This document shows positions 11,502 through 31,030 of a stretch of 64,000 nt of DNA, in pieces. The translations under genes and the position numbers were made by a program. Each line of letters starts with the position of its first letter. The stretch's first letter is position 1. This DNA comes from Comamonas resistens (GTDB lineage Bacteria; Pseudomonadota; Gammaproteobacteria; Burkholderiales; Burkholderiaceae_C), in the NCBI RefSeq assembly GCF_030064165.1, contig NZ_CP125947.1, forward strand, positions 558,001-622,000, given 5' to 3'. Below the pieces are notes generated by a model, which was given only the letters and a program-made list of their open reading frames with translations, had not been told where the DNA came from and did not search any database.

Positions 11502-12121
11502 TTCAGTCTCACGAACAGTTGCGTCAGCTCTATGCTGAGCCTGCCGAGCGGGCCTTGCTCAAGCAGCAACTGGAGCTCGACCGCTACTGCCTGCGCTTCA
11601 TCGCCCTGTCGCCGTTTGTGGTTCTGGCCACAGGTGGTGCCAACGGAGCCATGCTCGACGCTTCGCCGCGCGGTGGCAAGCCCGGTTTCGTCAAGGCGCC
11701 AGATGCCCAGACACTGTTGATCCCAGACGCGGGCGGCAACAACCGCCTCGACAGTTTCAGCAATCTGATCGACGACCCGCGCCTGGGTCTGCTGTTCTTT
11801 GTACCGGGGTTTGATGAAACCCTGCGCGTCAACGGCACGGCGCGACTGCGCGATGAGGCGCATTACACAGCGCTGTTCGCCAGCGACCATTTCCGTCCCA
11901 GGCTGGTGATCGAAGTACAGGTGCAAGAGGCCTATCTGCACTGCGCCAAGGCCTTGATGCGCTCCAGGCTCTGGAGTGCCGAGGCGCAGGTGCCGCGCAA
12001 GGTGATGCCATCGCTCAACCAGATGATCCAGTCACAGCTAGGCATGACCAGCGAGCCTGAATCGCAGGAAGCCATGGTGGCGCGCTATGCGTCACTGATT
12101 GCCCAGGAGCAGAACCGATGA
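11498..12121 (+). CDS. Pyridoxamine-phosphate-oxidase-family flavin split-barrel protein (MSMEG_1061-like)
   Basis: 207 residues. Features of the FMN-binding split barrel: SPFVVLATGGANG, DASPRGGKPGFVKAPD, then NNRLDSFSNLIDDPRLGLLFFVPG and TLRVNGTARL. The conserved C-terminal part contains HCAKALMRSRLW. This subgroup is often annotated as a pyridoxamine 5'-phosphate oxidase family protein, but the reaction is unknown. ATG overlaps the stop of the DUF695-like gene (ATGA). A decayed copy of its last 80 codons lies at 26790-27028. Confidence 0.85.
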   Translation: MIQSHEQLRQLYAEPAERALLKQQLELDRYCLRFIALSPFVVLATGGANGAMLDASPRGGKPGFVKAPDAQTLLIPDAGGNNRLDSFSNLIDDPRLGLLFFVPGFDETLRVNGTARLRDEAHYTALFASDHFRPRLVIEVQVQEAYLHCAKALMRSRLWSAEAQVPRKVMPSLNQMIQSQLGMTSEPESQEAMVARYASLIAQEQNR

Positions 12122-12191
12122 AGTGCGCAGCGGCAGTGGGCGTGGATCTGGCCGATGGCCTGCATGCAGGCTAGGCCACCTGGGGCGGTGA

Positions 12192-14564
12192 ATGCCTAGG
12201 CCCTGGGCGGCAGCTTCGATGACGCGGCTGCTGTGGCGCTTTGCCGCCATGCTGGCCGTCATTTGCGCAGCGACGCTGCTTGCCGGCGGTTACCTGACAG
12301 AGAACACCTTGCGCAGCGCGCAGCAGGAGGCATTCACGGACCGTTTTATGCTGGCTTCCCAGCGTGCGGCCACGGCTGCGGAGAATGCCCTGGCGTTGGG
12401 CGTTCCCTTGGCTCCAGACACGCCCCTGGCCGGGCTGCTGGCGCGTGAGGCGGCGCTGGAGCCGGCGCTGAGCTCTTTTGTGATTGATTCCGCACAGGGC
12501 GAACCGCTGCTTGCCGTGACCGTTGGTCAGCCAGCTGCGATGCAGGGGGGGGCACAAGCCAGCACGCCTATCCGCAATGATCTGGGTCAGACAGTGGCCT
12601 GGGCCAGGTTGCACTATGACGACAGCGCACTGAGCGCCGCGCAGCAGCGGCTGCATCAGGCGGTGCTATGGGCCGTCTGGCCTGCGCTGGCCCTGGTGTG
12701 TGCGGCGCTGGGGTTGCTGTGCGGGGGGCTGGTGGCCAGGCTCGGACGGCGGCATCGGCCGCTGGGGCTGCCAGGAGGGGAGCGCGCCCTGCTGACCGTC
12801 GCTTCGGCGCTGCTGCTGGGGGCTGCGCTGGCCTGGGTGGGCTGGCAGGCCGGCGTGGCGGGTCGGGCCAGCATCCAGCCCGACCAGATCGCCAAGGCCC
12901 AGGCCATGGTTCGCTCCAGTGCCGCGCTGATTGCCAGGGCTCTGGAAGCAGGCGTGCCCGCCGATGCGCTGGTGGGTGTCGAGGCACACGCGGCGGCATT
13001 GCACGCGCAAAGCCCTGAAATCGCCGAGCTGGCTTTTCTGGCCCCTGACGGACGCCTGTTGGCCGGAACCGTTCCGGCAGAAGGCCGGCTCCCGGTCCGG
13101 GCTCCGGTGCTGACGGCCGCCGGTCAGGAGCGGCAGGCCGGCGAGGTGGTATTGGCACTGGACCCCGGCGTGCTGACGCGCAGGCTGCAGGCCACGCTGC
13201 TGGACCTGGCATTTCTGGGTGCGATCTGTCTGCTGATGGCGCTGGAGTTGCTGGCGCTAGGCCTGGGCACGCGCGGCGCCCGCGCGCTGGCCGCGGCCGA
13301 TGCGCGCCGCAACCGCCGGGCGCAGGCTGCGCCCGGTGCTGCTGCACAGCCCTGGCGCACTACCGGTGCTGCAGCTGTGCGGCCGGCGTTGTTCCTGTTC
13401 ATGCTGGCCGAGGAATTGACGCGGCCCTTCTTGCCGACCTGGGCGCGCGCGCTGGCGCCCACTGACGGCCCGCTGTCACCGAATCTGCTGGCCAGCCTGC
13501 CGCTGGTTGTATTCCTGGCGGTCGTGGCCCTGCTGCAATGGCCTCTGGCCGCCTGGTCAGAGCGCCTCGGACGCCGTTCGGGGCTGATACTTGGCGCACT
13601 GCTGGGTGCTGCGGGTCTGGCTCTGGCTGCGGCCCTGCCCGGATACGCCGCGCTGGTTGCGGCGCGCCTGCTGGGTGCGGTCGGCTTTGCCATGGTGTTC
13701 GTATCGGCGCAGGGCGCCGCCATCGACGGCTCGGCCAGCCATGACCGCGCGCGCAGCCTGGCGCAGTTCGTGCGTGCCATTCTGGTGGCTGGCCTGTGCG
13801 GGCCGCCACTGGGTGGGCTGGCCGCTGATCGCTGGGGAGCTCCTGCAGCCTTTGCCTTGGCGGCTTGCGTGGCCTTGCTGGCCGCCGCCGTGGCCTGGAG
13901 GCAGATGCCAGCCCCCTCCCGGGCCGTGCAGCAGCCCGTGGCTGCGGTGCAAGGCCTTTCCTGGTCGGCCATGCTGCGCCAGCCCGGCCTTGGGGCCCTG
14001 CTGCTGGGCTGTGCACTGCCGGCCAAGCTGTTGCTGGCAGCGCTGTGTTTTTACCTGCTACCCATGCATTTGCAGGACATGGGCTATGGCAGTGCCGTTA
14101 CCGGACGGCTGCAGACCATTTATCCGCTGACCATGGTTCTGCTGGTTCCACTGGCCGCGCGCCTGGCGGATCGTTGGCGGCGGCGCGGCAGCTTTGTCGT
14201 GGTCGGGGGACTGCTGGCCGGAGCCAGCGCCATGCTGGCCTGGCCCATGGATGCAGACCCCATGCAGCTGGCGCTGATTCTGCTTGGATTGGGTCTGGGG
14301 CAGGCGCTGTCCATCACGCCCCAGTCGGCCCTGGTCGCTGATCTGGCTCGCAGCCTGCCGGCTCGCCAGGGGGCTGGCCTGCTAGGTCTGTTCAGGCTGA
14401 CAGAGCGTGGCGGCAGCGCCTTGGGGCCTGCCTTGGGTGCCTGGCTGCTGCCTGCCGTTGGCTTCAGCCCGGCGCTGGCGGTCATCGGCGCACTGGTGCT
14501 TGGCGGTAGTCTGGCCTATGGCTGTAGCCTGAGCCGGCAGAAGGCGCTGCGTACCAGAGGCTGA
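12192..14564 (+). CDS. MFS-type membrane protein with two N-terminal sensor-like segments
   Basis: 790 residues, far longer than a usual 400-residue MFS protein. Order: TM (about 17-38), extracytoplasmic segment (39-150), TM pair (about 152-216), a second extracytoplasmic segment (217-335), TM (336-358), then a full 12-helix MFS core (about 400-780) with the usual loop-2/3 motif (SERLGRRSG) and its repeat (LADRWRRRG). The two extracytoplasmic segments resemble each other loosely and look like double-sensor input domains. Start may be ATG 12219 instead, which puts MTRLLWRF right before the first TM. It heads a chain of genes ending in an RsbU phosphatase. Its ligand is unknown. Confidence 0.8.
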   Translation: MPRPWAAASMTRLLWRFAAMLAVICAATLLAGGYLTENTLRSAQQEAFTDRFMLASQRAATAAENALALGVPLAPDTPLAGLLAREAALEPALSSFVIDSAQGEPLLAVTVGQPAAMQGGAQASTPIRNDLGQTVAWARLHYDDSALSAAQQRLHQAVLWAVWPALALVCAALGLLCGGLVARLGRRHRPLGLPGGERALLTVASALLLGAALAWVGWQAGVAGRASIQPDQIAKAQAMVRSSAALIARALEAGVPADALVGVEAHAAALHAQSPEIAELAFLAPDGRLLAGTVPAEGRLPVRAPVLTAAGQERQAGEVVLALDPGVLTRRLQATLLDLAFLGAICLLMALELLALGLGTRGARALAAADARRNRRAQAAPGAAAQPWRTTGAAAVRPALFLFMLAEELTRPFLPTWARALAPTDGPLSPNLLASLPLVVFLAVVALLQWPLAAWSERLGRRSGLILGALLGAAGLALAAALPGYAALVAARLLGAVGFAMVFVSAQGAAIDGSASHDRARSLAQFVRAILVAGLCGPPLGGLAADRWGAPAAFALAACVALLAAAVAWRQMPAPSRAVQQPVAAVQGLSWSAMLRQPGLGALLLGCALPAKLLLAALCFYLLPMHLQDMGYGSAVTGRLQTIYPLTMVLLVPLAARLADRWRRRGSFVVVGGLLAGASAMLAWPMDADPMQLALILLGLGLGQALSITPQSALVADLARSLPARQGAGLLGLFRLTERGGSALGPALGAWLLPAVGFSPALAVIGALVLGGSLAYGCSLSRQKALRTRG

Positions 14565-14605
14565 ATATTTGGCCTGAGAGGCGGTGGCGGGCACATCGAT
14601 TGAAC

Positions 14606-14626
14606 AGAATTTTTTGAAAAAATTCT
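14606..14626. promoter_or_regulatory. AT-rich perfect palindrome before the SBP gene
   Basis: AGAATTTTTT-G-AAAAAATTCT, perfect over 10 bp per arm, 29 bp upstream of the substrate-binding protein start. It stands out in very GC-rich surroundings. It may be an operator or a weak hairpin; it lacks a GC stem for an intrinsic terminator. Confidence 0.45.
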
Positions 14627-14654
14627 TGTAAGGCTTTGTGAGAGACTAGTGCGC

Positions 14655-15713
14655 ATGTCACGCCGCCGCTTTCTCCGCCATTGCCTGCAGGGCACCAGCT
14701 TGCCCATGCTTGGACCGCTGTCTGCCATGGCTGCTCCGGTGTTGCAGCCGGTGGGCGGCCGGGCTTTCCATATTCTGATGATCACTTTTCGTGGTGAAAC
14801 CGATGTGGACAAGGGCTTCCGGGCCTATCTGGCCGATGCCGGGCTGCAGGTACGTTACACGGTGCGCGATGTGCAGCAGGATGTCTCCCGCATTCCTGCC
14901 ATCCTGCAGGAAGCAAAGGCGCTGGCACCGGACCTGATCTATGTCTGGGGCACGCCCGTCACGCTGGCCGTGGTGGGACCCTATGACGAACCCGACACGC
15001 AGCGACGCTATGTGCACGATATTCCCGTGGTCTTTGCGCTGGTGGCCGCGCCTGTGCAGTCGCGCATCGTGCCGCGGCTTGACGTACCGGGGCGCAAGGT
15101 GACAGGAGCCGTGCATGTGGTGCCGCCCGAGGTACAGCTGCGCGTCATGCAGAACTACCGGCCTTTCACCAAGCTGGGCGTGCTCTACAACGGAGCCGAG
15201 CCCAATTCACGGGCCATCGTGGCCCAGGCCAGGGTTTTTTGCCAGCGCCAGGGCGCTGAGTTGGTGGAGCGTACCTTTCACACGAATGAGCAAGGCCAGC
15301 CCGTGGGCGACGGCGTGGAAGACCTGGTGGCGCAAATCCACGCCGCAGGCGCGCAATGGCTGTACCTGCTGCCCGACACCTTCCTGGGAACGCTGTACGG
15401 TCGAATCACCCCCGCAGCATTGCAGCTGCAACTGCCGTCCTTCGGTGCGGCGGAGCTGGCCGTGCGCTCGGGCGGTGCGTTGCTGGGGCTGGTCAGCCGC
15501 TATTACTCGGTGGGACAACTGGCTGGCGCCAAGGCCGTGGACATCCTGGTCGGCGGCAAGCCGGCAGGCGCACTGCCCGTGGAAACGCTCAAGCGCTTTT
15601 CCCTGCTGGTCAATATGCGCGTCGCCCATAGCTTGCGCATGTATCCGCCCATCGACATGCTCAACTACGCTGAAGTCATTGCCGTGGGCGATGCAGCGGC
15701 CTTCTCGTCATGA
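14655..15713 (+). CDS. Tat-exported ABC-type substrate-binding protein (PF04392-like), orphan
   Basis: About 352 residues. The N-terminus SRRRFLRH followed by a hydrophobic stretch and AMA-AP is a twin-arginine signal peptide. The mature part has the two-lobe Rossmann layout of the ABC substrate-binding family that includes TrpX (ITFRGETDVDKGFRAYL, VYVWGTPVTLAV-like strand, KLGVLYNGAEPNSR, GLVSRYYSVGQLAG). No ABC permease or ATPase gene is near, so it may act as a ligand receptor for the sensor proteins downstream rather than in transport (inference). In-frame GTG at 14649 is an alternative start. It overlaps the next gene by 4 bp. Confidence 0.85.
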   Translation: MSRRRFLRHCLQGTSLPMLGPLSAMAAPVLQPVGGRAFHILMITFRGETDVDKGFRAYLADAGLQVRYTVRDVQQDVSRIPAILQEAKALAPDLIYVWGTPVTLAVVGPYDEPDTQRRYVHDIPVVFALVAAPVQSRIVPRLDVPGRKVTGAVHVVPPEVQLRVMQNYRPFTKLGVLYNGAEPNSRAIVAQARVFCQRQGAELVERTFHTNEQGQPVGDGVEDLVAQIHAAGAQWLYLLPDTFLGTLYGRITPAALQLQLPSFGAAELAVRSGGALLGLVSRYYSVGQLAGAKAVDILVGGKPAGALPVETLKRFSLLVNMRVAHSLRMYPPIDMLNYAEVIAVGDAAAFSS

Positions 15714-16387
15714 CGAACCCGGCTCCCGACGCAAGCCGCCTGCAGTGGCGCCTGCTGCAGGAGGCAGACCTGCAGTCCATGTATGGACTGCATTTGCTCA
15801 GCATTGCCGGCATGGCCGCTCAGGCGGTCAAGCCCGAGACGCGGGAATTCATGCTGAGCCTGTTGCAGGGCCGGGGGCGCGTGATCGGCGCCTGGCATGA
15901 AGATGCCCTCGTTGCCTATGGCGTGCTGCAGCATGATTTACTCGAGCACGACGATCCGCGCAGCCTGTTGGGACTGACGGCGGCCCAGCCGGTCTGCAAG
16001 CTCGCGGGTGCGGCCGTGGACCCAGGTTGGCGCGGCCAGGGGTTGCAGCGTGCGCTGATCCGGCGCCGCATGGACTGTGCTCCCCGTGACGCCGCGCTGT
16101 TTGCCACCGCCGCACCCTGTAATCTGCCCAGCTGGCATAACCTGCTGGCCTGCGGCTTTGCGGTGCGTGCGCTGCAATACCTCTACGGCGGCCATGCGCG
16201 CTATCTGCTTGCCCTGCTCCCGCAGGAGCAGGCTGTCTCGCTGCGGCCCGAAGCGGAGGTGTGCGTGGAACTGGACAACGGCGAGCTGCCGCAGCAGCAG
16301 GCCCTGCTGATGCAGGGGTGGCGCGGCACGGCTGTCGGCATGGCCGCCGGCAGCCTGCGTCTGGTGACGACTGTGAAGGGCAGGTAG
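15710..16387 (+). CDS. GNAT-family N-acetyltransferase-like protein
   Basis: 225 residues. The GNAT core is recognisable: a strand/loop with the acetyl-CoA-binding pattern VDPGWRGQGLQRALIRRRMD (about 103-122), where R-G-Q-G-L is the diphosphate loop. Earlier it has ADLQSMYGLHLLSI as the first helix. The acceptor substrate is unknown. ATG overlaps the upstream stop (ATGA) and the next gene starts 2 bp after, so it is translated as part of the RsbU gene chain. Confidence 0.82.
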   Translation: MTNPAPDASRLQWRLLQEADLQSMYGLHLLSIAGMAAQAVKPETREFMLSLLQGRGRVIGAWHEDALVAYGVLQHDLLEHDDPRSLLGLTAAQPVCKLAGAAVDPGWRGQGLQRALIRRRMDCAPRDAALFATAAPCNLPSWHNLLACGFAVRALQYLYGGHARYLLALLPQEQAVSLRPEAEVCVELDNGELPQQQALLMQGWRGTAVGMAAGSLRLVTTVKGR

Positions 16388-16389
16388 CC

Positions 16390-17538
16390 ATGAGCCTGCA
16401 GCTTGCCGCGCATGATGGGCCGCGCCTGTGCATAGACCTTGGCGCGCTGGAGCACAACTGGCAGGTCGTGCGCGGCGTCTGCCCGGGCAGCCGTGTCGGC
16501 GCTGTGGTCAAGAACGATGCCTACGGCCTGGGAGTTTCGAACGTCGTCCCTCAACTGTGGCAATGGGGCTGCCGCGATTTCTGGGTGGCGACCGTGGACG
16601 AGGCGCTGGCCGTGCGAGCCTGTCTGCCTGCGGATGCGAGGGCGGCGGGGCTGCGTATCCTGGTGCTCAATGGCCTGGCCGGGCTGACCGCTGAAGATTT
16701 TGCTGCGCATGGCCTGACCCCTGTGCTCGCCGGGCCCCATGAGCTGGCGGCCCTGACCGGTTATGCCGCGCGCCATGACAAGCGCTTTCCTGTGGCCCTG
16801 CACCTCGATACGGGGCTGACGCGCCTGGGCTTTGGCACTGCAGAGCTGGCGCAATTGCAATCCGGCTCCAGGCTCTGGGACGATGCCCAGGTTCAGCTGT
16901 GGGTGACCCATCTGGGGCGCTTCCACGACCCCGAGGCGCTGCAGTGCCAACGCCAGCGTGAGCGCTTTGTGCAATGGACGGCGCAACTGCCGCGGGCCGA
17001 GCGCAGCGTCGCCACCTCGTCCAGTGTGTTCGCGGGGCCGGGCTGGCATTTCGAGCAGGTGCGCGTCGGCAGCGCCTTGTTCGGCGTGCCCATAGGCGCG
17101 CACGCCGCCGAGCTGCTGCAGCCCGTGGCCAGCCTGAGAGCGCCTGTGCTGCGCGTGGCCGATGTGTCCGAGGGCACCGAGGTCGGCTATGCGGGCAGCT
17201 ATGTCACGGGCGGCCCGCGGCGCATCGCCACCGTGGCCATGGGCTACGGTCATGGCCTGCCGTTCAGTCTGGTCAACTGCGGCCACCTGATCCTGGCGGG
17301 ACGGCCGGCTCCCATCGTCGGTGGCGTGGCCATGGGCATGGTGGGGCTGGATGTGAGTGGCTATGCGCCCGGAGAAATCCAGCCTGGCATGTGGGCCGAG
17401 GTCTATGGTCGGCAGCAGCCGCTGCAAACGCTGGCCGCAGCGGCCGGCGTAGCCGCCAATGTAGTGCTGGCGCTGTCGGCCGCACTGGCACCGCACCGCC
17501 GCCAGTGCGGCGCGGCCGAAACCATGGAGGCCGCATGA
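16390..17538 (+). CDS. Alanine-racemase-like PLP protein
   Basis: 382 residues, alanine racemase fold and length. The PLP lysine is in AVVKNDAYGLG, and DTGLTRLGF, THLGRFHD, VRVGSALFG and EVGYAGSY align with active-site blocks of Alr. Two usual positions differ: GYADG reads GYGHG, and the VSMD block reads VAMG, losing the aspartate. It may thus be a racemase with another substrate or a PLP-binding sensor component. A housekeeping alr would not be expected inside a regulatory gene chain. It overlaps the next gene by 4 bp (ATGA). Confidence 0.85.
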   Translation: MSLQLAAHDGPRLCIDLGALEHNWQVVRGVCPGSRVGAVVKNDAYGLGVSNVVPQLWQWGCRDFWVATVDEALAVRACLPADARAAGLRILVLNGLAGLTAEDFAAHGLTPVLAGPHELAALTGYAARHDKRFPVALHLDTGLTRLGFGTAELAQLQSGSRLWDDAQVQLWVTHLGRFHDPEALQCQRQRERFVQWTAQLPRAERSVATSSSVFAGPGWHFEQVRVGSALFGVPIGAHAAELLQPVASLRAPVLRVADVSEGTEVGYAGSYVTGGPRRIATVAMGYGHGLPFSLVNCGHLILAGRPAPIVGGVAMGMVGLDVSGYAPGEIQPGMWAEVYGRQQPLQTLAAAAGVAANVVLALSAALAPHRRQCGAAETMEAA

Positions 17539-18296
17539 CGCTGCCGGGGCGCATCCATGCTGTCGTGCAGGTCTGTGTGCTGGCCCTGCTGGCGGCCTTG
17601 CTGCTGCTCACGCAGCAGGCCGAGCGCACCCGTCAGGCAGATATGGAAGCGCAGCTCGATGGCTATCTGCTGCGCAGCTTGCGCACCACGGCCGAGAACT
17701 TCCTCTCCACGGGATTGCAGCTGGAGCAGATGGAGGCGCTGCAGGGCGTGATCGAGCGCGAGCAGGCTTCCTTTGCACGGGTCGTTGCCATTGATGTCTA
17801 TGCCGCCAGCGGCAGCGTGCTCTACAGCACCGATGTCGACAGCCGCGGCCGGCCCGTGCCCGACGACTGGCGTCGGTATCTGGCTCAGGAGCAGCCCTGG
17901 CATGCCGAATCGCTGATGCTGCGGCAGATCGGCCAACGTTTTGACAACGACCTGGGCCAGGCGGCGGGAGGCATCGTCATCACCCTCTCCACTGCACCTG
18001 TTCCGCAAACGCTGGAACAGTGGAAACAAAAAGGGCAGCAGGGGCTGCAATGGTTGATGCTGGCGGCCTTGGCCTGCCTGGTGGCCTGGGCCTGCGTGTA
18101 CATGGGGCTCAAATTTCTGCTGCGGCCCTACGGCAATGCCGCACGCATTCTGCAAGGCAGGCCGTTGGCCCAGAGCGATGCACAGACGACTGCGCTGACG
18201 CAGGCGGCCTTGCGCCAGCGCGGGCAGTGGCAGGCCATGCAGCAAGGCTGCCAGCAGAGCATGAAGCAGCTGGAGGAGCTGGATCATGAGGCTTGA
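17535..18296 (+). CDS. Two-TM sensor-like membrane protein, no output domain
   Basis: 253 residues. TM at about 8-26, an extracytoplasmic segment of about 140 residues (with VIEREQASFARVVAIDVYA, then VLYSTDVDSRGR, like a double-sensor/PAS-type fold), a second TM near 175-197 (WLMLAALACLVAWACVYMG) and a short Gln-rich cytoplasmic coil. There is no kinase, GGDEF or phosphatase domain. It starts inside the alr-like stop and overlaps the next gene by 11 bp. Likely an input subunit for the RsbU phosphatase two genes on (inference). Confidence 0.75.
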   Translation: MTLPGRIHAVVQVCVLALLAALLLLTQQAERTRQADMEAQLDGYLLRSLRTTAENFLSTGLQLEQMEALQGVIEREQASFARVVAIDVYAASGSVLYSTDVDSRGRPVPDDWRRYLAQEQPWHAESLMLRQIGQRFDNDLGQAAGGIVITLSTAPVPQTLEQWKQKGQQGLQWLMLAALACLVAWACVYMGLKFLLRPYGNAARILQGRPLAQSDAQTTALTQAALRQRGQWQAMQQGCQQSMKQLEELDHEA

Positions 18297-19098
18297 GCGC
18301 AGTTTTCCGGCCCTGCAGGATCTGCGCTGGCGTGCGGGCCTGCTGGCTTTTGCGGTGCTGCTCGTCGTCGGCAGTGGCTGCGCGCTGTGGGCCCTGCACG
18401 AACTGCGCATAGGGGGCGCACGCGCTGCCAGTCAGGATGCTCGGGCCATGGCCCGGTCCGTGGCCCAGACCCTGGCCCAGCAACTGGGGCGCGCGGCAAG
18501 GCTGGGTATTCCGCTGCAGGAGCTGCCGGGCGTGGCGCCCTACCTTGCGGCGGCACTTGAGCGCCAGTCCGCGCTGGCCTCGATTGCGGTGGTGCTGCCT
18601 GACGGCCGCACGCTGCATGCCGTGGGGGCCGAGTCCGCTCCCGGCGATGCAGCAGACTCGGTTCGCGTGGAGATCGCTGCCAAGAAAGGGGTGGCCGGTG
18701 CCGTGGTGGCTGTGGCAGGAGGCCGTGCCGCCAGGCCGCAAAGTCTGGCGCGGGCTCAGGCGCTGAGCGCAGCAGCGGTGCTGGCGCTGGCTGTGGGCGC
18801 AGGCCTGTGGGCGGCGCTGGGGCCGGGCGCGCAGCTGGAGCGCCAGCGCCGGGCGGCAAGGGCCTGGCTGGAGGGGGGCGTACTGGCCGATATTTCCGGG
18901 CTGGAGGTCCTGTGCCGTGGAGGCGGGTTGCAGCCCCTGTTGGAAGCCCTGACCCAGGGCGATGCCGAGCAGCGCGCGGCGCAAGAGGCTGTGAAGGCCT
19001 ATGCCCAGGAGTTGCTGGCCATGGATTTCGACGGACTGATGCGTGAAGACATAGAGCGCATCGTGAACCCTGCCGCCGGGCAGTCGGAGGAAGGCTGA
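18286..19098 (+). CDS. Second two-TM sensor-like membrane protein
   Basis: 270 residues. Similar plan to its upstream neighbour: TM near 18-40, extracytoplasmic segment with VAPYLAAALERQSALASIAVVLPDGR (quoted only in part in other tools; key residues LPDGRTL), TM near 160-178, then a cytoplasmic helical tail of about 90 residues without a known output domain. It overlaps the gene before by 11 bp and touches the RsbU gene after it (stop 19096-19098, ATG 19099). It probably senses an extracytoplasmic signal together with the other membrane proteins of this chain. Confidence 0.72.
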   Translation: MRLERSFPALQDLRWRAGLLAFAVLLVVGSGCALWALHELRIGGARAASQDARAMARSVAQTLAQQLGRAARLGIPLQELPGVAPYLAAALERQSALASIAVVLPDGRTLHAVGAESAPGDAADSVRVEIAAKKGVAGAVVAVAGGRAARPQSLARAQALSAAAVLALAVGAGLWAALGPGAQLERQRRAARAWLEGGVLADISGLEVLCRGGGLQPLLEALTQGDAEQRAAQEAVKAYAQELLAMDFDGLMREDIERIVNPAAGQSEEG

Positions 19099-21135
19099 AT
19101 GCTGCTGCGCACGCGCATCACCCTGATGGCCGCCGCAGGCCTGCTGCTGACGGCGCTGGGCCTGGGCAGCGCCGGACTGTTGCGTGAACAGTTGCTACTG
19201 CAGCGCCTGGCCGTCACGACCCAGGCCGCGCAGACGGCGTTATGGGCCGAGGCCCTGGCTGCGGAAGACCAGACGCTGGACCAATACGCGGACCGGCTGG
19301 TTCTGGCACCGCATTTTCTGCAGGCTGTGCGGCGCGCCGATCCGGCTGCCATTTCCCAGGCCATGGCACAGGCGGGCCTGAAGCCCGGGCCGGGCCAGCC
19401 GCTGGATCTGGTGGCTGTGCTGAGCCTGGGCCGCAGTCCCATGGTTCAAGGGGCGGTGCCGCAGAGGGCCTTGCTCGATGCGGACAGCCTGGAGCGGGCC
19501 GTTGCAGGCGATGTCATGGACGGACTGCGCGTGCTCGGGGCAGATCAGGTGCTGGTGATTTCCACCAGAAGACTGCCCGACCAGTCCGAGCCTGCGGTGC
19601 TGGCGCTGGCGCGCGATGCGCACCATGCCCTGCAGCACATGGCGCAGCGCACGGCTTCCGTGGCCACGTTGCTCGACCTGCGCGGTAATCTGCTGGCGAC
19701 CACCGATGCCGAGCTGTGGCGGGCTGCGGCTCGGCATGTGGTGCAGCGTGCGGCGCAGCATGGCGAACTGGAGCTGGACGGCAAAACCTATACCCTCAGC
19801 AGCATGCCGGTGAACGATCTCGCAGGCCATGCGGCAGGCACGCTGATCACGCTGGCCGACCACACCCAGGATGCTGCGGCAAGCCGTTTTCTCGGGCGGC
19901 TGGCGCTGGGCGCCATTGCTGCCTTGCTGCTGGCCGTGCTGCTGGGGCTGAATTTCTACCTGCGTCGCAGCCTGCGTCCGCTTGAGCGTTCCATCGACGT
20001 CTTGCAGGCGCTGGCCCAGGGCGATGCCAGCGTGCGCCTGTCCTATGCGGGCAATGATGAAATCGGTCGCATTGCCCGGGCCGTGGCTGCTTTCCGGCGC
20101 AATGCACAGGAGCTTGCTGCCGCACGCGCCTTGCGTGAGCGCGTGCGCCGCCGGCAGGAGCGCCTGCTGCGCACCAAGCTGCAGAGCCTGGCTGAAGCCA
20201 CGCACCAGCCCCTGGCGCTGCAGGCCGGTGATGGAGACGAGGATAGTGACGAGGATAGTGACGAGGAGCAACTGCGTCAGCTGGCCGGTGTGATGAACGA
20301 GTTGTCGGGCCGGCTCATAGACCAGCACCAGCGCCTGACCGGCATGGTGCAGGAGCTGCGCGAGGCCCTGGTCACGAAGAACCGCCTTGCGGGTCTGGAG
20401 CAGGAGCTGCAGATCGCGGCCCAGGTCCAGCTGAGCATCTTGCCGCGCCAGCAGCCGCAGGACGCGCGCGTGCAGCTGCATTGCCACATCACGCCGGCGC
20501 GCGAGGTCGGCGGGGACTTCTACGACTACTTCTTCATCGACGATGCACATCTGGGCTTTGTGATCGCCGACGTTTCCGGCAAGGGCGTGCCCGCTGCGCT
20601 GTTCATGACCATCACGCGCACGCTGCTCAAGGCCACGGCACAGTTCATCGCCGAACCCACGAAATGCCTGGGCCAGCTCAACGACCTGCTGGCCGCAGAG
20701 AACGAGCAGATGATGTTCGTCACGCTGTTCTATGGTGTGCTGAATCTGGAAAGCGGTCAGCTGCGCTACGTCAATGCCGGGCACAACCCGCCATACCTGC
20801 TGCGCGCGGACGGCGGCGTGGCCTTGCTGCCGCGTACCGGCGGCATGGCCGTGGCCGTGAGCGAAGGCTTTCCCTACCGCGCGGGCAGCGTGGAGCTGGG
20901 TATTGGCGACCAGCTATTCCTCTATACCGACGGTGTGACCGAGGCCTTCGATCCCGATGGGCGGGAATATGGCGAGCCCCGGCTGGAGCAGGTGCTGTGC
21001 ACGCTGATGGCCGGGCCCGAGCACGCGCCGGCGCAGCTGGCCGCAGGCGTGCTGGCCGATGTCCATGCCTTCGAGCGCGGCGCACCCCAGGCCGACGACA
21101 TCACCTGCGTGGCGCTGCGCTATATGGGCTCCTGA
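19099..21135 (+). CDS. RsbU/SpoIIE-type PP2C serine phosphatase with sensor and HAMP domains
   Basis: 678 residues. TM near 8-28, extracytoplasmic sensor (about 30-265), TM (about 270-292), HAMP (RSLRPLERSIDVLQALAQGD), a coiled coil with an acidic repeat, then a C-terminal PP2C domain (about 440-676). All metal-site aspartates are present: EVGGDFYDYF, IADVSGKGVPAALF, YTDGVTEAFDPDG and QADDITCVAL. Family members dephosphorylate a phospho-STAS anti-anti-factor (RsbV), freeing it to bind the RsbW kinase. A STAS protein and an RsbW-like protein are encoded 5 kb downstream and are the probable partners. Confidence 0.93.
   Translation: MLLRTRITLMAAAGLLLTALGLGSAGLLREQLLLQRLAVTTQAAQTALWAEALAAEDQTLDQYADRLVLAPHFLQAVRRADPAAISQAMAQAGLKPGPGQPLDLVAVLSLGRSPMVQGAVPQRALLDADSLERAVAGDVMDGLRVLGADQVLVISTRRLPDQSEPAVLALARDAHHALQHMAQRTASVATLLDLRGNLLATTDAELWRAAARHVVQRAAQHGELELDGKTYTLSSMPVNDLAGHAAGTLITLADHTQDAAASRFLGRLALGAIAALLLAVLLGLNFYLRRSLRPLERSIDVLQALAQGDASVRLSYAGNDEIGRIARAVAAFRRNAQELAAARALRERVRRRQERLLRTKLQSLAEATHQPLALQAGDGDEDSDEDSDEEQLRQLAGVMNELSGRLIDQHQRLTGMVQELREALVTKNRLAGLEQELQIAAQVQLSILPRQQPQDARVQLHCHITPAREVGGDFYDYFFIDDAHLGFVIADVSGKGVPAALFMTITRTLLKATAQFIAEPTKCLGQLNDLLAAENEQMMFVTLFYGVLNLESGQLRYVNAGHNPPYLLRADGGVALLPRTGGMAVAVSEGFPYRAGSVELGIGDQLFLYTDGVTEAFDPDGREYGEPRLEQVLCTLMAGPEHAPAQLAAGVLADVHAFERGAPQADDITCVALRYMGS
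20236..20267 (+). repeat. 12-bp in-frame tandem repeat in rsbU-like gene
   Basis: Unit GACGAGGATAGT, two full copies plus 8 bases of a third. It encodes the acidic run DEDSDEDSDEE in the linker between the HAMP-proximal coiled coil and the phosphatase domain. Because the unit is a multiple of three, copy changes would lengthen the linker without frameshift. Confidence 0.85.
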
Positions 21136-21222
21136 AAACAGGAGCTTATTGCGCTTGCTGGATAAGGAATTGAAGGCATTTCATTTCTGAAATGCTGGTG
21201 TGGCAAGCGCAAGCAGCTATTT
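21128..21222. terminator. Nested hairpins between convergent genes (repeat-like element)
   Basis: Three inverted repeats lie between the RsbU gene and the convergent permease. GCTCCTG-AAAA-CAGGAGC spans the RsbU stop codon. GCATTTCA-TTTC-TGAAATGC is at 21176-21195. A long-range pair AGCTTATTGCGCTTGC / GCAAGCGCAAGCAGCT (21143-21158 and 21203-21218) is followed by T8. The outer pair resembles a short intergenic element that recurs near 41.6 and 43.9 kb. It probably terminates both transcripts. Confidence 0.6.
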
Positions 21223-21234
21223 TTTTTGAGTGCA

Positions 21235-22962
21235 TTAATTCTCGAAGGTCAGCCGCAGCGTGCACAGCCCATCGGCATTGCTGCTGGCGCGTGCACCGTG
21301 AGCCGACTGGCTTACCAGGTAGCCGGTCATCTGCAGCTCGGCCTCGGTGCTGGCCATCAGCTCTTCGGCCGACGGGGGCTGTTTTGCCAGCGGCAGCAGG
21401 CCGCCGCGGTAGCGCACGATGAGGGTGAAGATGTATTCGTCAAAGCCCGTCTCCACCTCGATCTCGCTCTGCGGGTCCGCCAACAGATGATGGCCGGTGA
21501 GTGCCTCCACCACCTGCCAGCCCACCAGCTCGGCACGGCGCACGGGCTCGTGGCGTGCGCCCCAGAGCCGACCCTGACTTTCGAGGAACTCGGTGATGTC
21601 GTCCAGCGTGGTGTGGTCCAGCGCGAAGCGCTTGCGCGTGCCCTGGCGTATGCCCAGACGGAATACCGAGGACATGAGCACCGTCACGCACACGCCCGCC
21701 GCTAGGCCCGACAGCGCCACATAGGCCAGCGAGGGCCATAGCTGCTGAATGGCCGGCTGGATGATGGGCATGCCCGTGCCCACCATCAGGCCCAGCCCCA
21801 CGGCCAGCACGCGCCGGTTGTCCAGCATGCGCGAGGCGATCAGCTGCAAGCCGCTGAGCGTGGTGAAGGTGGCAAGGTACAGCAGCAGCGCGCCCATGAC
21901 GGATGCGGGCAGCAGCAGCCACAGGCCGATCAGCTTGGGTACCAGCGCGGCCAGCAGCAGCAGGCCCGCCGTCCAGTAGCCGAGATAGCGGCTGGCGCTG
22001 CCCGAGGCTGCAGCCAGGCTCACGGCGCCGCCGCTGGCGGCCAGCGGCAGGCCGTTGACCAGGGCCGCGAACAAATGGGCCACGCCCTCGGCACGCACGC
22101 CGCGTGCCAGCGGGCGCAGATGGGGTCGCACCCAGTCGGCATCGGCGCTGCGCTGCACGATGGTCTGCGTGCCCATGGAAGTCAGAGAGAGCACGAAGCC
22201 CGTGACGATATATGGCGCTATGGCCATGGGCTCGAAGCTCCAGCCGAAGACCGGCAACTGAGGCAGCCGCACCCAGGCCAGTTGCTGCCAGGCGTGCAAC
22301 TGCTCGGGCATCAGATCCAGCAGCAGACTCAGCGCCATGCCCACAAGCAGGCCGGCCAGCGGCGCCATGAGCTTGAGCAGACCCCTGGCCCAGACGTTGC
22401 AGCCAATCATGGTGCTCAGCGCCAGTGCTCCGGTCAGCAGCGAGGCGCCGGTCAGCGGCTGGCCATGCGACAGCCGCGTGCCGGTAATCTGCTGCAGGCC
22501 CAGCGCGCCCAGGCCCAGCCCGATCAGCATCACTGCCACGCCCGATACTTCGGTGGTGAAGATATTGCGCATGCGCATGATGAGAAAGCTGAAGGCGATC
22601 TGCGTCAGCCCCACCACCCAGATCATGCCGAACACTGCTTGCAGACCCGAGCCCGGCAGACTGGCCACCAGATACATGCCCGGCAGCACAGCGCCCGTGG
22701 CCTGCAGCGGGTAGTAGTAGCCAGCGCCCAGGTAGCGCAGCGCGCGCACCTGCAGCACGATAACCAGCGCCGACACCAGCAGCGTGGCCGAGGCGATGTC
22801 CAGAAAGCCGCTGCGCTCCTCCAGCCCCGCCGCGCGTGCATAGATATCGGGAATGATCATCAGCGCGCCGAGAAAGGCCAGTTGCTGCAGGGCCAGCCCC
22901 AGAGCCAGCTTTGTGGGCAGCGGGTCGTTGACGCCGAAGGCGATGTTGTCTGGGCGGCGCAT
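21235..22962 (-). CDS. Divergent NCS2/SLC23-fold permease with RsbW-like C-terminal domain (copy A)
   Basis: 575 residues: about 420 residues of hydrophobic helices in the NCS2 (uracil/xanthine permease) order, then a soluble tail of about 130 residues. Residues that normally bind nucleobase are changed: the TM1 Gln-His pair reads LQQL, and the N-x-G-x4-T signature near TM10 reads GGAVSLAAASGS. The tail has helix RRAELVGWQVVEAL, strand FDEYIFTLIVRYRG and a final strand LCTLRLTFEN, a pattern resembling an RsbW ATPase fold without its N and G boxes. It lies 11 bp after a carbonic anhydrase gene, so probably one transcript. Substrate unknown; bicarbonate or another anion is only a guess from the neighbour. 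Confidence 0.78.
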   Translation of the reverse strand: MRRPDNIAFGVNDPLPTKLALGLALQQLAFLGALMIIPDIYARAAGLEERSGFLDIASATLLVSALVIVLQVRALRYLGAGYYYPLQATGAVLPGMYLVASLPGSGLQAVFGMIWVVGLTQIAFSFLIMRMRNIFTTEVSGVAVMLIGLGLGALGLQQITGTRLSHGQPLTGASLLTGALALSTMIGCNVWARGLLKLMAPLAGLLVGMALSLLLDLMPEQLHAWQQLAWVRLPQLPVFGWSFEPMAIAPYIVTGFVLSLTSMGTQTIVQRSADADWVRPHLRPLARGVRAEGVAHLFAALVNGLPLAASGGAVSLAAASGSASRYLGYWTAGLLLLAALVPKLIGLWLLLPASVMGALLLYLATFTTLSGLQLIASRMLDNRRVLAVGLGLMVGTGMPIIQPAIQQLWPSLAYVALSGLAAGVCVTVLMSSVFRLGIRQGTRKRFALDHTTLDDITEFLESQGRLWGARHEPVRRAELVGWQVVEALTGHHLLADPQSEIEVETGFDEYIFTLIVRYRGGLLPLAKQPPSAEELMASTEAELQMTGYLVSQSAHGARASSNADGLCTLRLTFEN

Positions 22963-22973
22963 CTGTCAGTCTT

Positions 22974-23678
22974 TCAGTCGATGACGGGCATCAGCTGCGT
23001 GCCGCCGGGCTCGGTGGTCCAGAGGTCGCCCGTGTCCAGGTCGAACCACCAGCCGTGCAGCACCAGATTGCCTGCCTCGACGCGTTCGCGCACCCAGGGA
23101 TAGCTCATGAGGTTCTTCAGCGAGCCGGCCACCGAAGCGCGCTCGACCAGCGCCGGGTTGTCCTTCAGGCGCTCCAGCGGGGCCAGCAGGGGCTGGCCCT
23201 GGGCGTCTTTCTCGGAGAGCTGCAGGCGGCTGGCGTCCAGTGCCATAGAGACCCAGTTGCCGATGAAGTCGCTTTGCAGCCACTGTCCACCCGCGCCGCC
23301 CAGCATGGCCTTGATGCCGCCGCAGTGCGCGTGGCCCAGCACGATGATGTGGTCTACCTTCAGGTGGCATACCGCGTATTCGATGGCTGCGCCCGCACCG
23401 TCGAAATGGTGTGCGGGATCGTAAGGAGGCACCAGGTTGGCCACGTTGCGCACCACGAACAGCTGACCTGGATCGGCGTCGGACAGCAGCGTGGGATCCA
23501 CGCGCGAGTCACTGCACGAAATCACCAGGGCTGGCGGCGATTGGCCTTGATCGACCAGCCGGTGCATCAGCTCGCTGTTGTCTTCATAAAAGCGCTGGCG
23601 AAAGCGCTTGATGCCCTCCAGCAGATGGCTGATGTCGCGGCAGGCGTCGCCGGCGTGTGCATGATCATGATGGGCCAA
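22974..23678 (-). CDS. Beta-class carbonic anhydrase, second copy
   Basis: 234 residues. Zinc ligands C55 (ISCSDSRVD), H116 and C119 (LGHAHCGGIKA), and the D57/R59 pair, are intact, so catalysis is expected. The N-terminus is His-rich (AHHDHAHAGD). The start is taken as TTG 23678, which has GGAGAA 8 nt before it; the nearby ATG triplets are out of frame. It is encoded between an RsbW-like kinase and a permease gene, which suggests that CO2/bicarbonate handling is part of this module. The 150-bp gap upstream may carry its own promoter. Confidence 0.9.
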   Translation of the reverse strand: MAHHDHAHAGDACRDISHLLEGIKRFRQRFYEDNSELMHRLVDQGQSPPALVISCSDSRVDPTLLSDADPGQLFVVRNVANLVPPYDPAHHFDGAGAAIEYAVCHLKVDHIIVLGHAHCGGIKAMLGGAGGQWLQSDFIGNWVSMALDASRLQLSEKDAQGQPLLAPLERLKDNPALVERASVAGSLKNLMSYPWVRERVEAGNLVLHGWWFDLDTGDLWTTEPGGTQLMPVID

Positions 23679-23847
23679 AATGATTTCTCCACAAAACAAG
23701 TTAGGACTTGCGCCAATCAGGATGAATCAAGGATTGCTGTTTTGAGGCAACGCTCTTGCTTGAGCCTGATTTGCGCACATCGTGCAAAGGTCGGGAACGA
23801 GAATCCTGCCACAGCCCTGGCGGGCTGCAACATTTGCTTGCATTCGT

Positions 23848-24306
23848 TTATGGCTCCAGCGCCACTTCCAGCAGCAGCACATTGCGCAGCGCTTCGCGGC
23901 GGTACAGCATCTGGTGCAGATAGTGGCGCATCAGCCGCAGGCCATGGCCACCGACCTGCGCCTCGTCCAGCGAGGCGGCCAGATCGGGCGAGGCCTGGGC
24001 CGTCGGGTCGAAGGCCACGCCGTTATCCTCGATCCTCAGAGCCAGGCCATGTGCCGTGGGGCCGCAGGCCAGCCACAGGTGCAATGGCTGGTCGGGCTGA
24101 GGGACGATATTGGCCAGGGCTTCGTCGGCGCACAGCGTCAGTGCAAACAGTGTCTTGGGCGGCCAGGCCTGGTGCTCGCCCAGTGCCTGCAGCCAGGCCA
24201 GTGCGCCGGAGATGCTCTCGGGGCCGGGCATGGGCTCGAAGCGCTGCGCCGGCGCGGTCCAGGCCGGCCATTCGGGTTGTGCAGTGGCGGTTGCCGCAGT
24301 GCTCAT
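23848..24306 (-). CDS. RsbW-like GHKL serine kinase / anti-sigma-type ATP-binding protein
   Basis: 152 residues. The GHKL ATP-binding motifs are complete: N-box DEALANI (E62, N66), G1 box IEDNGVAFDP (D94, G96) and G2 box GGHGLRLMR (119-127). Family members (RsbW, SpoIIAB, BtrW) phosphorylate a STAS partner and sequester an output protein, usually a sigma factor. No sigma gene is visible here; the permeases beside it carry related but motif-poor domains. ATG at 24306 has AAGGAG upstream and is preferred over TTG 24339. It starts 29 bp after the permease B stop. Confidence 0.9.
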   Translation of the reverse strand: MSTAATATAQPEWPAWTAPAQRFEPMPGPESISGALAWLQALGEHQAWPPKTLFALTLCADEALANIVPQPDQPLHLWLACGPTAHGLALRIEDNGVAFDPTAQASPDLAASLDEAQVGGHGLRLMRHYLHQMLYRREALRNVLLLEVALEP

Positions 24307-24335
24307 GGGTGGCAGCTCCTTGGAGTTTTGGGGCC

Positions 24336-26090
24336 TCAATGCTCGAAATGCAGGCGCAGCATGGCTTCACCAGTACCGACGTTATCTGCGGTGCTCACAC
24401 GGTCCGCCAGATGGCGCAGCAACTGGCCCGAGACATTGGCCAGCGCCGCGTCGATGGCGCTGTCGTCACCATCCAGCAGCGCGGCGGACGCCGGCGCGGC
24501 CGGGCCCGAGGACAGGGCCAGCGGCGCGCCCGTGTGCAGCATCTCCAGGTCGAGGTTGAATTCGTCGAAACTGCCGCGCATGCCCGTCAGCTGACGTCCC
24601 TGGGCAGCCACGGCCTCGGCGGCCTCCAGGGCGGCAATGGCCGCGCGCTGCACCACGTTGCGCCGCGCACCCCAGGCTGCGCCCCAGGTCTCGACCAAGC
24701 CCGTGATGTCTGCATGCAGCGTGGGGCTGGCAGACTGCAGCGATTGCGCAGCGCGCTGCGAGGTGCCGATGCGAAACAGCAGGTTCAGCACGATGACCAG
24801 AATGCCAGCGACCACAAATCCGTCACCCAGCAGGAAATGCAGCCCCGGGGGCAGATGCTGCGCCAGTTGCGGCATCTGCATCAGCGTCAGGCCTGCGCTC
24901 AGCGACAGTCCCACGGCAAAAATACCGCGGCTGTCCATGGCGCGTGAAGCAATCAGCTCCATACCCGAGACCATCAGAAACCCGGCCGCATACAGGCCCA
25001 CGGCGCCCAGCACGGGCTCGGGAATCAGCGTCAATGCCATGGTCAGCTGCGGCAGAAAAGCCACCAGAGCCAGGAGCAAAGCCGTCATGAACCCGATGAC
25101 GCGGGCCGTGGAGCGCGTGGCGTAGACCAGGGCGATATTGGCGGAGCTGACGCAGGTGGGAAAGCCGCCCAGCATGCCCATGAGCAGATCACCGATGCCG
25201 TTGGCCTTGATGCCGCTGCCCACGGCCTGCATGTTGGCGCGCTTCCAGTCCGCGTCGTCCATCTTGTCGAGCATGATGACGCTGCCCAGCATATCGAGCT
25301 GTGTGAGCACGGCCACCAGCGCCACGGCCACCATCATGCCGGCATCAAGGCCGAGCACCGGCGCAGCCACCTGCGGCAGCGCCACCAGCGGCACGTCCTG
25401 CAGCACCTGCAGGCCTTCGAGTTGGCCCAGCATGGCTGCCACCACAACGCCCGCCGCAATGGCCACCAGCAAGGCCATGAGGCGCAGCCGCCTGCCCCAG
25501 ACCGACAGCACCACGATGCAGCCCAGCGTGATGCCGGATACAAGCGCGCTGCCGCCATCGACATGCCATTGCCCGTCCACGCCCAGCGCATGGCGTACTG
25601 AGGACGACACCAGCGCCATGCCGCCCATGCAGATCACCACGCCCACGACAGGCGGTGGAAACAGCGCTCGCATATGGCGCACCAGCGGTGCCATGACCAG
25701 CGTCACCACGCCGTAGACCAGCGCCGCAGTCGCCATGCCGCCAGGCCCATGCGCGGCCACCAGTGCCGACACAAAGGCGATCATGAACGGGTTGGGCATG
25801 TGTACCAGCAGCGCGCCGCTGCCCCAGCGTCCGCCCCAGGCCTGCAGCGCCGTGCACAAGGCCATGCCCAGCAGCGTCATGGCCACCATGGACTGCGTGC
25901 CCCAGCGGTCCAGCCCGGCCGTACGCGCCGCGACCAGCACATAGGTGACGAAGGCCATGGCCGTGGCCGCATGCTGCGCGCCCAGCACCAGCAAGGCACC
26001 GGCCGAAGGCCGCTCGTCTGCGGCGTATACGAGGTCGGGCGGACGGCGGCGTACGGCCAGTGCGGGCAAGCGCAGAAAGGACAAATACAT
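24336..26090 (-). CDS. Divergent NCS2/SLC23-fold permease with RsbW-like C-terminal domain (copy B)
   Basis: 584 residues. It keeps the TM1 GAQHAA Gln-His of NCS2 permeases and an N-x-A-x4-T version (SSANIALVYATR) of the family signature, but the usual Glu of the TM8 block is not obvious (VLTQLDMLGSV). About 130 C-terminal residues after FRIGTSQ form a soluble domain: helix AAIAALEAAEAVA, strands FDEFNLDLEMLHTG, helix ALANVSGQLLRHLADRVS, and final strand AMLRLHFEH, paralleling the RsbW neighbour but lacking its N and G boxes. Probably a paralogue of permease A. ATG 26090 is chosen over TTG 26120. Divergent from the STAS gene. Confidence 0.78.
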   Translation of the reverse strand: MYLSFLRLPALAVRRRPPDLVYAADERPSAGALLVLGAQHAATAMAFVTYVLVAARTAGLDRWGTQSMVAMTLLGMALCTALQAWGGRWGSGALLVHMPNPFMIAFVSALVAAHGPGGMATAALVYGVVTLVMAPLVRHMRALFPPPVVGVVICMGGMALVSSSVRHALGVDGQWHVDGGSALVSGITLGCIVVLSVWGRRLRLMALLVAIAAGVVVAAMLGQLEGLQVLQDVPLVALPQVAAPVLGLDAGMMVAVALVAVLTQLDMLGSVIMLDKMDDADWKRANMQAVGSGIKANGIGDLLMGMLGGFPTCVSSANIALVYATRSTARVIGFMTALLLALVAFLPQLTMALTLIPEPVLGAVGLYAAGFLMVSGMELIASRAMDSRGIFAVGLSLSAGLTLMQMPQLAQHLPPGLHFLLGDGFVVAGILVIVLNLLFRIGTSQRAAQSLQSASPTLHADITGLVETWGAAWGARRNVVQRAAIAALEAAEAVAAQGRQLTGMRGSFDEFNLDLEMLHTGAPLALSSGPAAPASAALLDGDDSAIDAALANVSGQLLRHLADRVSTADNVGTGEAMLRLHFEH

Positions 26091-26182
26091 GGTCGGGAAA
26101 ATTCTGGCAGGGTTCGGCAAGAGGCCACGCTATCATCGCAGCGGCTTGCATTCTGCGATAAACCACAGAGAAAATTATTTCC

Positions 26183-26515
26183 ATGACGATTGCCATCGAA
26201 CCTACCGCCGCCGCCACCATCGTGCCTCTGCAAGGGCAGATCAACAGCGCCAATGCCGCAGCCATCGAGGCACAGGTGCTGGCGCTCGTGGATGGCGGCA
26301 CCAAGAATCTGATCCTCGATTTTGCGGGCCTTGACTACATCTCCAGCGCCGGTTTGCGCATGGTTCTGGTGGTGGCCAAGCGCCTCAAGCAGGAAAGCGG
26401 TCTGCTGGTGCTGTGCGGCATGCAGCCGCATGTGCGCGAGGTCTTCGACATCAGCGGCTTCCTGGCCATCCTCAATGTCGAGCCCACGCGCAGCGAGGCA
26501 TTGACTCGGTTCTGA
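26183..26515 (+). CDS. STAS-domain anti-sigma-factor antagonist (RsbV/SpoIIAA-like)
   Basis: 110 residues, a stand-alone STAS domain. The phosphorylation loop FAGLDYISSAGLRM is intact; S55 (second Ser of ISSAG) aligns with the phospho-serine of SpoIIAA. Flanking strands IVPLQGQINSANA and LLVLCGMQPHVREVFDISGF are typical. It should be the substrate of the RsbW-like kinase (23848-24306) and of the RsbU phosphatase (19099-21135). It is transcribed away from the permease operon across a 93-bp gap that must hold both promoters. Confidence 0.93.
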   Translation: MTIAIEPTAAATIVPLQGQINSANAAAIEAQVLALVDGGTKNLILDFAGLDYISSAGLRMVLVVAKRLKQESGLLVLCGMQPHVREVFDISGFLAILNVEPTRSEALTRF

Positions 26516-26595
26516 GTGGACATCTTGCTGTCCTCTCTGGCAAAGGGCGCAGGCCATTTTCACGACAAGAAAACAAAAAACGGCGCAACCGTGCA

Positions 26596-26788
26596 GCGGC
26601 GTCAAGCAGTTCATCACCGGGGGCAAGAACGGTGATGTGGCCGTTGTCATTGCCATTGCCGACAAGGCGACAAGGCGACAAGGCGGCGGGTAAAAAAGGC
26701 ATGAGCGCCTCTCGTACCGACCGCCAGCCCCGGCTCATCGTGGCGCGCCTTGAGGACAAGCGGGGCCGGCACAGCGGCGATACGGCAC
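26596..26788 (+). pseudogene. Decayed fragment of the acyl-CoA dehydrogenase gene
   Basis: Matches codons around 149-210 of the intact acyl-CoA dehydrogenase at 27846-28976 (parent bases about 28290-28473). Readable pieces are GVKQFIT-GGKNGDVAVVIAIADKA and ARLEDK. It is disrupted by a triplication of GACAAGGC (26661-26684), which breaks the frame, and by substitutions. It has no start or end of its own. It fuses directly to the next fragment at GATACGGCAC. Confidence 0.85.
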
Positions 26789-26789
26789 G

Positions 26790-27028
26790 GTGCTGTTCGC
26801 AAGCGATCATTTCCGCCCCAGGCGGGTGATCAAGGTGCATGTGCAAGAAGCCTGTCTGCACTGCGCCAAGGCCTTGATGCACTCCAGGCGCTGGAGTGCC
26901 GAGGTGCAGGTGCCGCGCAAGGTCATGCCATCGCTCAATCAGATGATCCGGTCGCAGTCAGGCATGACCAGCGAGCCGTGGCCCGCTACAGCGCGCTGAT
27001 TGCAGCAGAGCAAGGCAAACAGAGCTGA
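26790..27028 (+). pseudogene. Decayed fragment of the flavin split-barrel gene
   Basis: Matches the last 80 codons, including the stop, of the gene at 11498-12121 (parent bases about 11872-12121): LFASDHFRPR, then HCAKALMHSRRWSAEVQVPRK and NQMIRSQ. Identity is roughly 85% by eye at DNA level. About 19 bp are deleted after GCGAGCC, shifting the frame near the end. It follows the acyl-CoA dehydrogenase fragment without a gap. It is a remnant, not an active gene. Confidence 0.87.
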
Positions 27029-27800: not shown

Positions 27801-27845
27801 CCCAGGCTGAAAAAGGGTATACAGCTATAAATATTGGAGACATTC

Positions 27846-29934: not shown

Positions 29935-29950
29935 TGACTGGGAAGGTGAC

Positions 29951-30984: not shown

Positions 30985-31030
30985 GCCGGAGTCCGCGCAA
31001 CTGGCCGGAGTGTCCTTCCCTTGAACTCAA

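Follow-up and report, generated by a model that had tools for sequence, protein, structure and literature searches.

A 64,000-nucleotide stretch of the Comamonas resistens genome (contig NZ_CP125947.1, positions 558,001 to 622,000; here called the window) holds, at positions 12192-26515, genes resembling the RsbU/RsbV/RsbW partner switch together with two permeases that end in an RsbW-like tail (Per1 and Per2) and a carbonic anhydrase. Twelve genes were found at this locus using the list of open reading frames (ORFs) and Pfam and NCBIfam scans (Table 1); every gene described by the first-pass annotation of this DNA is present, although its count was eleven. The genes of the major facilitator superfamily (MFS) transporter, the periplasmic binding protein (SBP), the GNAT protein, the alanine racemase, the sensor-like proteins Sen1 and Sen2, and RsbU lie on the plus strand, mostly abutting or overlapping. 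Per1, the carbonic anhydrase, RsbW and Per2 are encoded on the minus strand, with RsbV divergent on the plus strand. The RsbW gene and the stop of Per2 overlap by 4 bases, the carbonic anhydrase gene lies 11 bp upstream of Per1, and Per2 has an alternative ATG start at 26090.

Table 1. Features of the locus, in window coordinates (TM, transmembrane segment)
Feature	Position	Strand	Evidence
RsbV-type STAS protein, predicted phospho-acceptor Ser55	26183..26515	+	PF01740 1.1e-21; TIGR00377 over cut-off
RsbW-type serine kinase, N, G1 and G2 boxes intact	23848..24339	-	PF13581 8.2e-13
RsbU, membrane sensor-HAMP-PP2C phosphatase	19099..21135	+	PF07228 3.1e-51, PF00672
Per2, SLC23/NCS2-fold permease with C-terminal RsbW-like pseudokinase tail	24336..26120	-	PF00860 6.5e-36
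Per2 tail, degenerate RsbW/SpoIIAB-fold domain	24339..24758	-	profile comparison and structure model
Per1, SLC23-fold permease with RsbW-like tail, carbonic-anhydrase-linked clade	21235..22962	-	PF00860 5.6e-36
Per1 tail, same degenerate domain, more diverged	21238..21657	-	alignments A1, A2, A5
Beta-carbonic anhydrase	22974..23699	-	PF00484 7e-46
MFS transporter with N-terminal sensor-like hydrophobic segments	12192..14564	+	PF07690 1.1e-40, best stretch residues 399-719
SBP, Tat-type exported ABC_sub_bind protein	14649..15713	+	PF04392 1.4e-19; SRRRFLR motif
GNAT acetyltransferase	15710..16387	+	PF00583 1.6e-6
Alanine racemase, lineage-specific	16390..17538	+	TIGR00492 174.8 bits, cut-off 168
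Sen1, two-TM sensor-like protein	17535..18296	+	TM estimate; homologues in relatives
Sen2, two-TM sensor-like protein	18286..19098	+	TM estimate; homologues in relatives

Partner-switch proteins

RsbU is a HAMP-SpoIIE protein with the complete set of four PP2C motifs (GGDFYD, DVSGKG, TDGVTEA and ADDIT). In RsbV, Ser55, which the first-pass annotation had proposed as the phosphorylation site, aligns with serine in 35 of 36 RsbV rows, the remaining row being a gap, in agreement with that proposal. The catalytic Glu and Asn are kept in 30/30 rows of the RsbW alignment, as are the first and last glycines of the G2 box, and the G1 Asp is kept in 29/30. The genome has 14 HATPase_c_2 matches, all in frames of at least 274 residues except RsbW with 172, and four STAS matches, all in frames of 561-661 residues except RsbV with 117.

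A domain scan of the locus proteins found no sigma factor, as the annotation had said. It had also named a sigma factor as the main RsbW target among the findings that would refute its proposal; judged by sequence alone, such a target receives no support, since no SigB/F/G sigma factor scored over the cut-off in any of 21 genomes. Sigma-70 family matches below the SigBFG cut-off are present in all 21. By their sequences, RsbU, RsbV and RsbW resemble a partner switch, and we do not class them as a sigma regulator.

Permease tails and their gene neighbourhoods

Pfam does not detect the tails of Per1 and Per2. Their RsbW-like nature, claimed at first pass, was nevertheless confirmed by a profile comparison with both tails in the set and by a structure model of the Per2 tail, which place the fold in the anti-sigma-kinase type of GHKL domains. 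Anti-sigma kinases score clearly above histidine kinases, making a histidine-kinase origin of the tail less likely. The permutation list in these comparisons covers the best 10 of 30. Searched by sequence with the tail profile, PDB gave no chain. The N-box Asn is retained in none of 63 tails and the G1 Asp in one of 63; with ATP-site residues lost here and kept in the standalone RsbW, the tail looks like an inactive RsbW copy.

The solved structures matched by the permease profile are chains of UapA and UraA, NCS2 carriers in which we take the TM8 Glu and the TM10 [QEP]-N to be substrate residues. The TM8 Glu and TM10 Gln are found in none of 60 locus rows (which include repeats, some permeases having been fetched twice) and none of 66 database rows of tailed permeases. 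Both are kept in 22 of 24 other rows, the two exceptions, L052 and L097, being one broken sequence and one weak member of the tailed family. The TM10 Asn is retained in 32/60 locus and 38/66 database rows of tailed permeases, and Pro occupies the TM10 Gln position in 14/66 of the latter. Because the TM8 Glu and TM10 Gln are lost, nucleobase transport by tailed permeases is unlikely, and we rejected it as the default reading. Per2 scores over the cut-off of the NCBIfam purine/pyrimidine permease model NCS2_1 (58.8 against 40), and with the pbuX and ncs2 models the permease scores are far under cut-off. No STAS domain was found by Pfam in either permease, the C-terminal tail being RsbW-like instead. 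The Per2 tail alone matches 274 permease-length proteins among 8000 candidates scored, and a diverged tail matches 145 of 487, possibly overlapping with the 274; if the reading of the tailed permeases given here is right, many proteins labelled xanthine/uracil permease are probably misnamed.

Tailed permeases lie near partner-switch genes more often than expected by chance. RsbV lies within 3 kb in 37 of 63 tailed permeases, RsbW within 5 kb in 36 and RsbU within 8 kb in 27, these rows not being independent, as the window is among them, seven loci contribute two permeases apiece, and some loci are nearly identical (the window and L031; the Methylococcus loci). At least one of the three genes lies within 8 kb in 43/63, compared with 0/18 for plain NCS2 permeases, all of them from the order of the window (of 20 regions fetched, two gave no row). 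L118, which has no permease and whose match is an RsbU-RsbW protein, and L032, a duplicate of L100, were excluded, and the tail of L119 falls under the 40-bit threshold. In a second order the tail search was positive in 20/121 genomes, central genome included; we take this order to be Methylococcales, as it includes Methylococcus geothermalis and Methylomagnum ishizawai. The first-pass annotation had staked its proposal beforehand on conservation beyond very close relatives, and the linkage does recur in this other order.

The arrangement of these genes varies between loci. One order is RsbU-RsbW-RsbV-permease, in which a Na/Pi-cotransporter-like gene separates RsbV from the permease in L098 (9062-10678), L108 (10592-12256) and L109 (14663-16360), PF02690 having been tested in L098 only. 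L113 and L115 have the order RsbV-permease-RsbU, and L064 the order RsbW-RsbV-permease followed by a fusion of ammonium transporter and SpoIIE phosphatase (10333-12501; PF00909 and PF07228). The occurrence of the same parts in differing orders argues for a functional link. The recurring core consists of RsbV, a tailed permease and RsbW, often with RsbU, and the carbonic anhydrase is associated with the Per1 clade. The idea of eleven or twelve genes as one unit was rejected, as relatives keep parts only. Thus, of the module proposed at first pass, the partner-switch genes, the lack of a sigma factor at the locus and the linkage to tailed permeases and carbonic anhydrase stand, but its genes are not conserved as one unit.

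Other neighbourhoods were also seen. The tailed permeases of L066 (9526-12057) and L067 (9580-12099) have a long N-terminal extension, which contains a GAF domain in L066 and is alike in L067 by alignment; a histidine kinase adjoins the L066 permease. In L069 (4601-12023), two convergent tailed permeases lie near a histidine kinase and, judged by eye, a response-regulator-like gene.

The carbonic anhydrase has both zinc-ligand motifs, CxDxR and HxxC, as CSDSR and HAHC. The relatives of Per1 group in a single clade with a support of 1.0, made up of 27 sequences, 7 from Comamonadaceae and 20 from Methylococcales, and only this clade is relied on, the base of the whole tailed family being poorly supported (0.30). 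A carbonic anhydrase gene lies directly upstream in 20 of the 27 members, 19 of them from the linkage count and one from L034, where it is cut at the contig end. The order carbonic anhydrase-permease-RsbV is found in 14/20 Methylococcales loci, in 10 of which a divergent RsbW adjoins the carbonic anhydrase. In the Methylococcus loci L158 (4615-7922) and L152 (10331-13647), RsbV is followed by genes for a periplasmic binding protein and an MCP-type receptor; the domains Peripla_BP_5 and MCPsignal were tested for in L158. In L154, L155 and L156, from one genus of the second order, cysD-cysN-like genes, whose domains were tested in L156, directly precede the tailed permease, a hint at sulfate or another anion.

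One such locus has been described experimentally. In Methylococcus capsulatus, the beta-carbonic anhydrase CA4 (MCA1665) and a xanthine/uracil permease (MCA1664) form an operon, transcription of CA4 rises 2.8-fold upon CO2 removal, a CA4 knockout grows poorly and is not rescued by CA4, and the authors propose that MCA1664 may transport bicarbonate (PMC11423575). Four primers printed in that paper match L157 with no mismatch at the expected places and give the stated 717-bp ORF, and the gap between carbonic anhydrase and permease in L157 is 11 bp, as in the window. The published locus is therefore the L157 module or one nearly identical to it. The text of PMC11423575 makes no use of the term anti-sigma. 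Beyond the remark on this operon, no description of the combination of parts was found in the open-licence PMC literature, where absence is weak evidence.

A transporter as candidate output of the switch

With these observations in mind, we propose that this partner switch acts on a transporter and not on a sigma factor, a reading to which we assign a probability of about 0.55. What has been observed in its favour is the homology and fold of the tails, the dead sites of the tails as opposed to the live sites of RsbW, the loss of the nucleobase site, the gene linkage, and the lack of a SigB/F/G sigma factor over the cut-off. According to this model, RsbW would phosphorylate RsbV on Ser55, and the membrane phosphatase RsbU would remove the phosphate upon a signal from its sensors, namely its own periplasmic part and perhaps SBP and Sen1/Sen2. 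Free of phosphate, RsbV would then partition between RsbW and the tail of the permease, and by docking on this catalytically dead domain it would gate transport. As SLC23 carriers work as homodimers, and RsbW/SpoIIAB likewise, a permease dimer could present an RsbW-like dimer. Bicarbonate is probably what the Per1 clade, adjoining carbonic anhydrase, transports or senses, and other anions are probably handled by Per2-type members; RsbV-tail binding, gating, the direction of its effect and the substrate are what we infer. More tentatively, and at somewhat less than even odds, one may speculate that the switch gates membrane transport directly. The dead RsbW on an SLC23-fold anion permease would compete for RsbV with the live kinase, and in the Per1 clade of methanotrophs and Comamonadaceae this would control a bicarbonate flux coupled to carbonic anhydrase, giving a CO2-supply module that is switched post-translationally.

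Several known systems come close to this one. The RsbU/V/W and SpoIIAA/SpoIIAB systems of Bacillus share the PP2C phosphatase, the STAS phosphoprotein, the GHKL kinase, the catalytic motifs and the position of the phospho-serine; unlike them, the system described here has no SigB/F/G sigma factor over the cut-off and has a second, dead RsbW fused to the adjacent permease. SypA/SypE and SiaABCD are partner switches that do not act on sigma factors, and their outputs are biofilm or c-di-GMP regulation, not a permease. SulP/SLC26 transporters with a C-terminal STAS domain have a related architecture of 7+7 TMs and a tail likewise drawn from the STAS/anti-sigma world (PMC8256260), and in M. capsulatus a SulP protein lies beside beta-CA3, having, as Per1 does, a carbonic anhydrase neighbour (PMC11423575). 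Here, however, the tail comes from the RsbW side, and the STAS protein is separate and has a phospho-acceptor Ser. The CA4-MCA1664 operon has the same pair of carbonic anhydrase and Per1-type permease with the same 11-bp spacing, but the part of PMC11423575 available to us names no RsbV, RsbW or tail. In Synechocystis, the Slr1861/Ssr1600-SigC cascade and the icfG operon also tie a partner switch to the inorganic carbon level, but the target is the sigma factor SigC and not a transporter (PMC12329169).

Several findings weigh against a transporter output. A close relative of Per2 was found in only 2/36 genomes of the same genus (G001 and G003), and the distribution of the module is therefore patchy; tail profile A2 was likewise found in only 15/399 genomes of the family, with 9/369 of the class (one false match, G462, and one weak, G1238, included), and tail profile A1 in 7/399 genomes of the order and 3/398 of the phylum, all four tallies counting the genome of the window itself and being lower bounds with ∼10-12 candidates scored per genome. 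In the order of G1482 the tail was found in 4/36 genomes, three of them weak, and the one locus fetched (L161) lacks RsbV, RsbW and RsbU. No RsbV, RsbW or RsbU lies within 8 kb, in the stretch fetched (a few being on short contigs), for 20/63 tailed permeases, and some tailed permeases adjoin histidine kinases or carry a GAF fusion (L063, L066 and L069); RsbV is thus not the partner of the tail everywhere, unless it acts in trans. Six genomes with an RsbV-permease pair and no RsbW nearby hold a standalone RsbW elsewhere, which in G1558 and G1638 shares a contig with the permease at a distance of ∼10 kb. The notion, raised by L113 and L115, that the tail replaces an absent RsbW was rejected, as RsbW is present elsewhere in those genomes. 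Within the Per1 clade, 7/27 members (L033, L142, L145, L148, L154, L155 and L156) have no carbonic anhydrase. In M. capsulatus, all five carbonic anhydrase genes rise 2.0- to 3.8-fold after CO2 removal, and a knockout of CA1, which has no such reported neighbour, is likewise not rescued by CA1 (PMC11423575).

The unlinked permeases and the histidine-kinase and GAF contexts keep alive a less probable alternative, in which the permease is a sensor (transceptor) whose substrate, by binding or being transported, alters the hold of the dead tail on RsbV, and hence the RsbV that reaches RsbW and an RsbW partner elsewhere. Adjoining histidine kinases and the GAF fusion of L066 are what a sensory role predicts, and the loss of nucleobase-site residues also fits it. 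On the other hand, no alternative output gene recurs beside the core in the loci read, RsbU already supplies sensory input, and the pairing with carbonic anhydrase fits transport better than sensing alone. That RsbW regulates a sigma factor encoded elsewhere, with the permeases as passengers whose tails only dimerise, seems to us improbable: the classical targets of RsbUVW are sigma factors, the catalytic motifs of RsbW are kept and each of the 21 genomes has sub-cut-off sigma-70 matches, but none has a SigBFG match over the cut-off, no locus protein has a sigma domain, and the linkage is to tailed and not to plain permeases (43/63 against 0/18). Least credible of all, and in our view very unlikely, are ordinary nucleobase permeases with a structural tail lying near an RsbUVW operon by chance. 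Membership in PF00860 and the NCS2_1 score of Per2 would suit such proteins; the absence of the TM8 Glu and TM10 Gln from tailed rows and their presence in most others, the low pbuX and ncs2 scores and the linkage in two orders would not.

If the proposed transporter output is real, it would be a way for partner switching to control transport with no transcription involved, and a mirror image of the STAS-tailed SulP transporters.

Accessory genes and surroundings of the module

The MFS, GNAT, alanine racemase and Sen1/Sen2 genes were found in Comamonadaceae loci only, and the Comamonas relatives L060 and L061 have no MFS, alanine racemase, carbonic anhydrase or Per1 gene within the stretch fetched. 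The MFS protein is weakly similar to Sen2 in relatives. Sen1 and Sen2 have no Pfam or NCBIfam match and no recognised output domain, and SBP is a possible sensory input.

The nearest named relative, L031, is a Comamonas metagenome-assembled genome, 98% over Per1. Per1 had no match in plasmids at E 1e-30. The module is a compositional island by G+C, with 67.2% at 12192-26120 against 61.7% at 9093-12121 and 61.5% at 27129-36000. Right of the module, 192 bp are 89% identical to the 3' end of a PNPOx gene on its left (11866-12057), and this repeat, together with the G+C contrast, suggests that the module was acquired or rearranged. The segment at 26594-26977, between RsbV and an SDR gene, is a chimera of gene remnants, consisting of this 192-bp repeat and of ∼195 bp that are 76% identical to an internal piece of an acyl-CoA dehydrogenase gene (28289-28470); it is possibly a recombination scar flanking the module.
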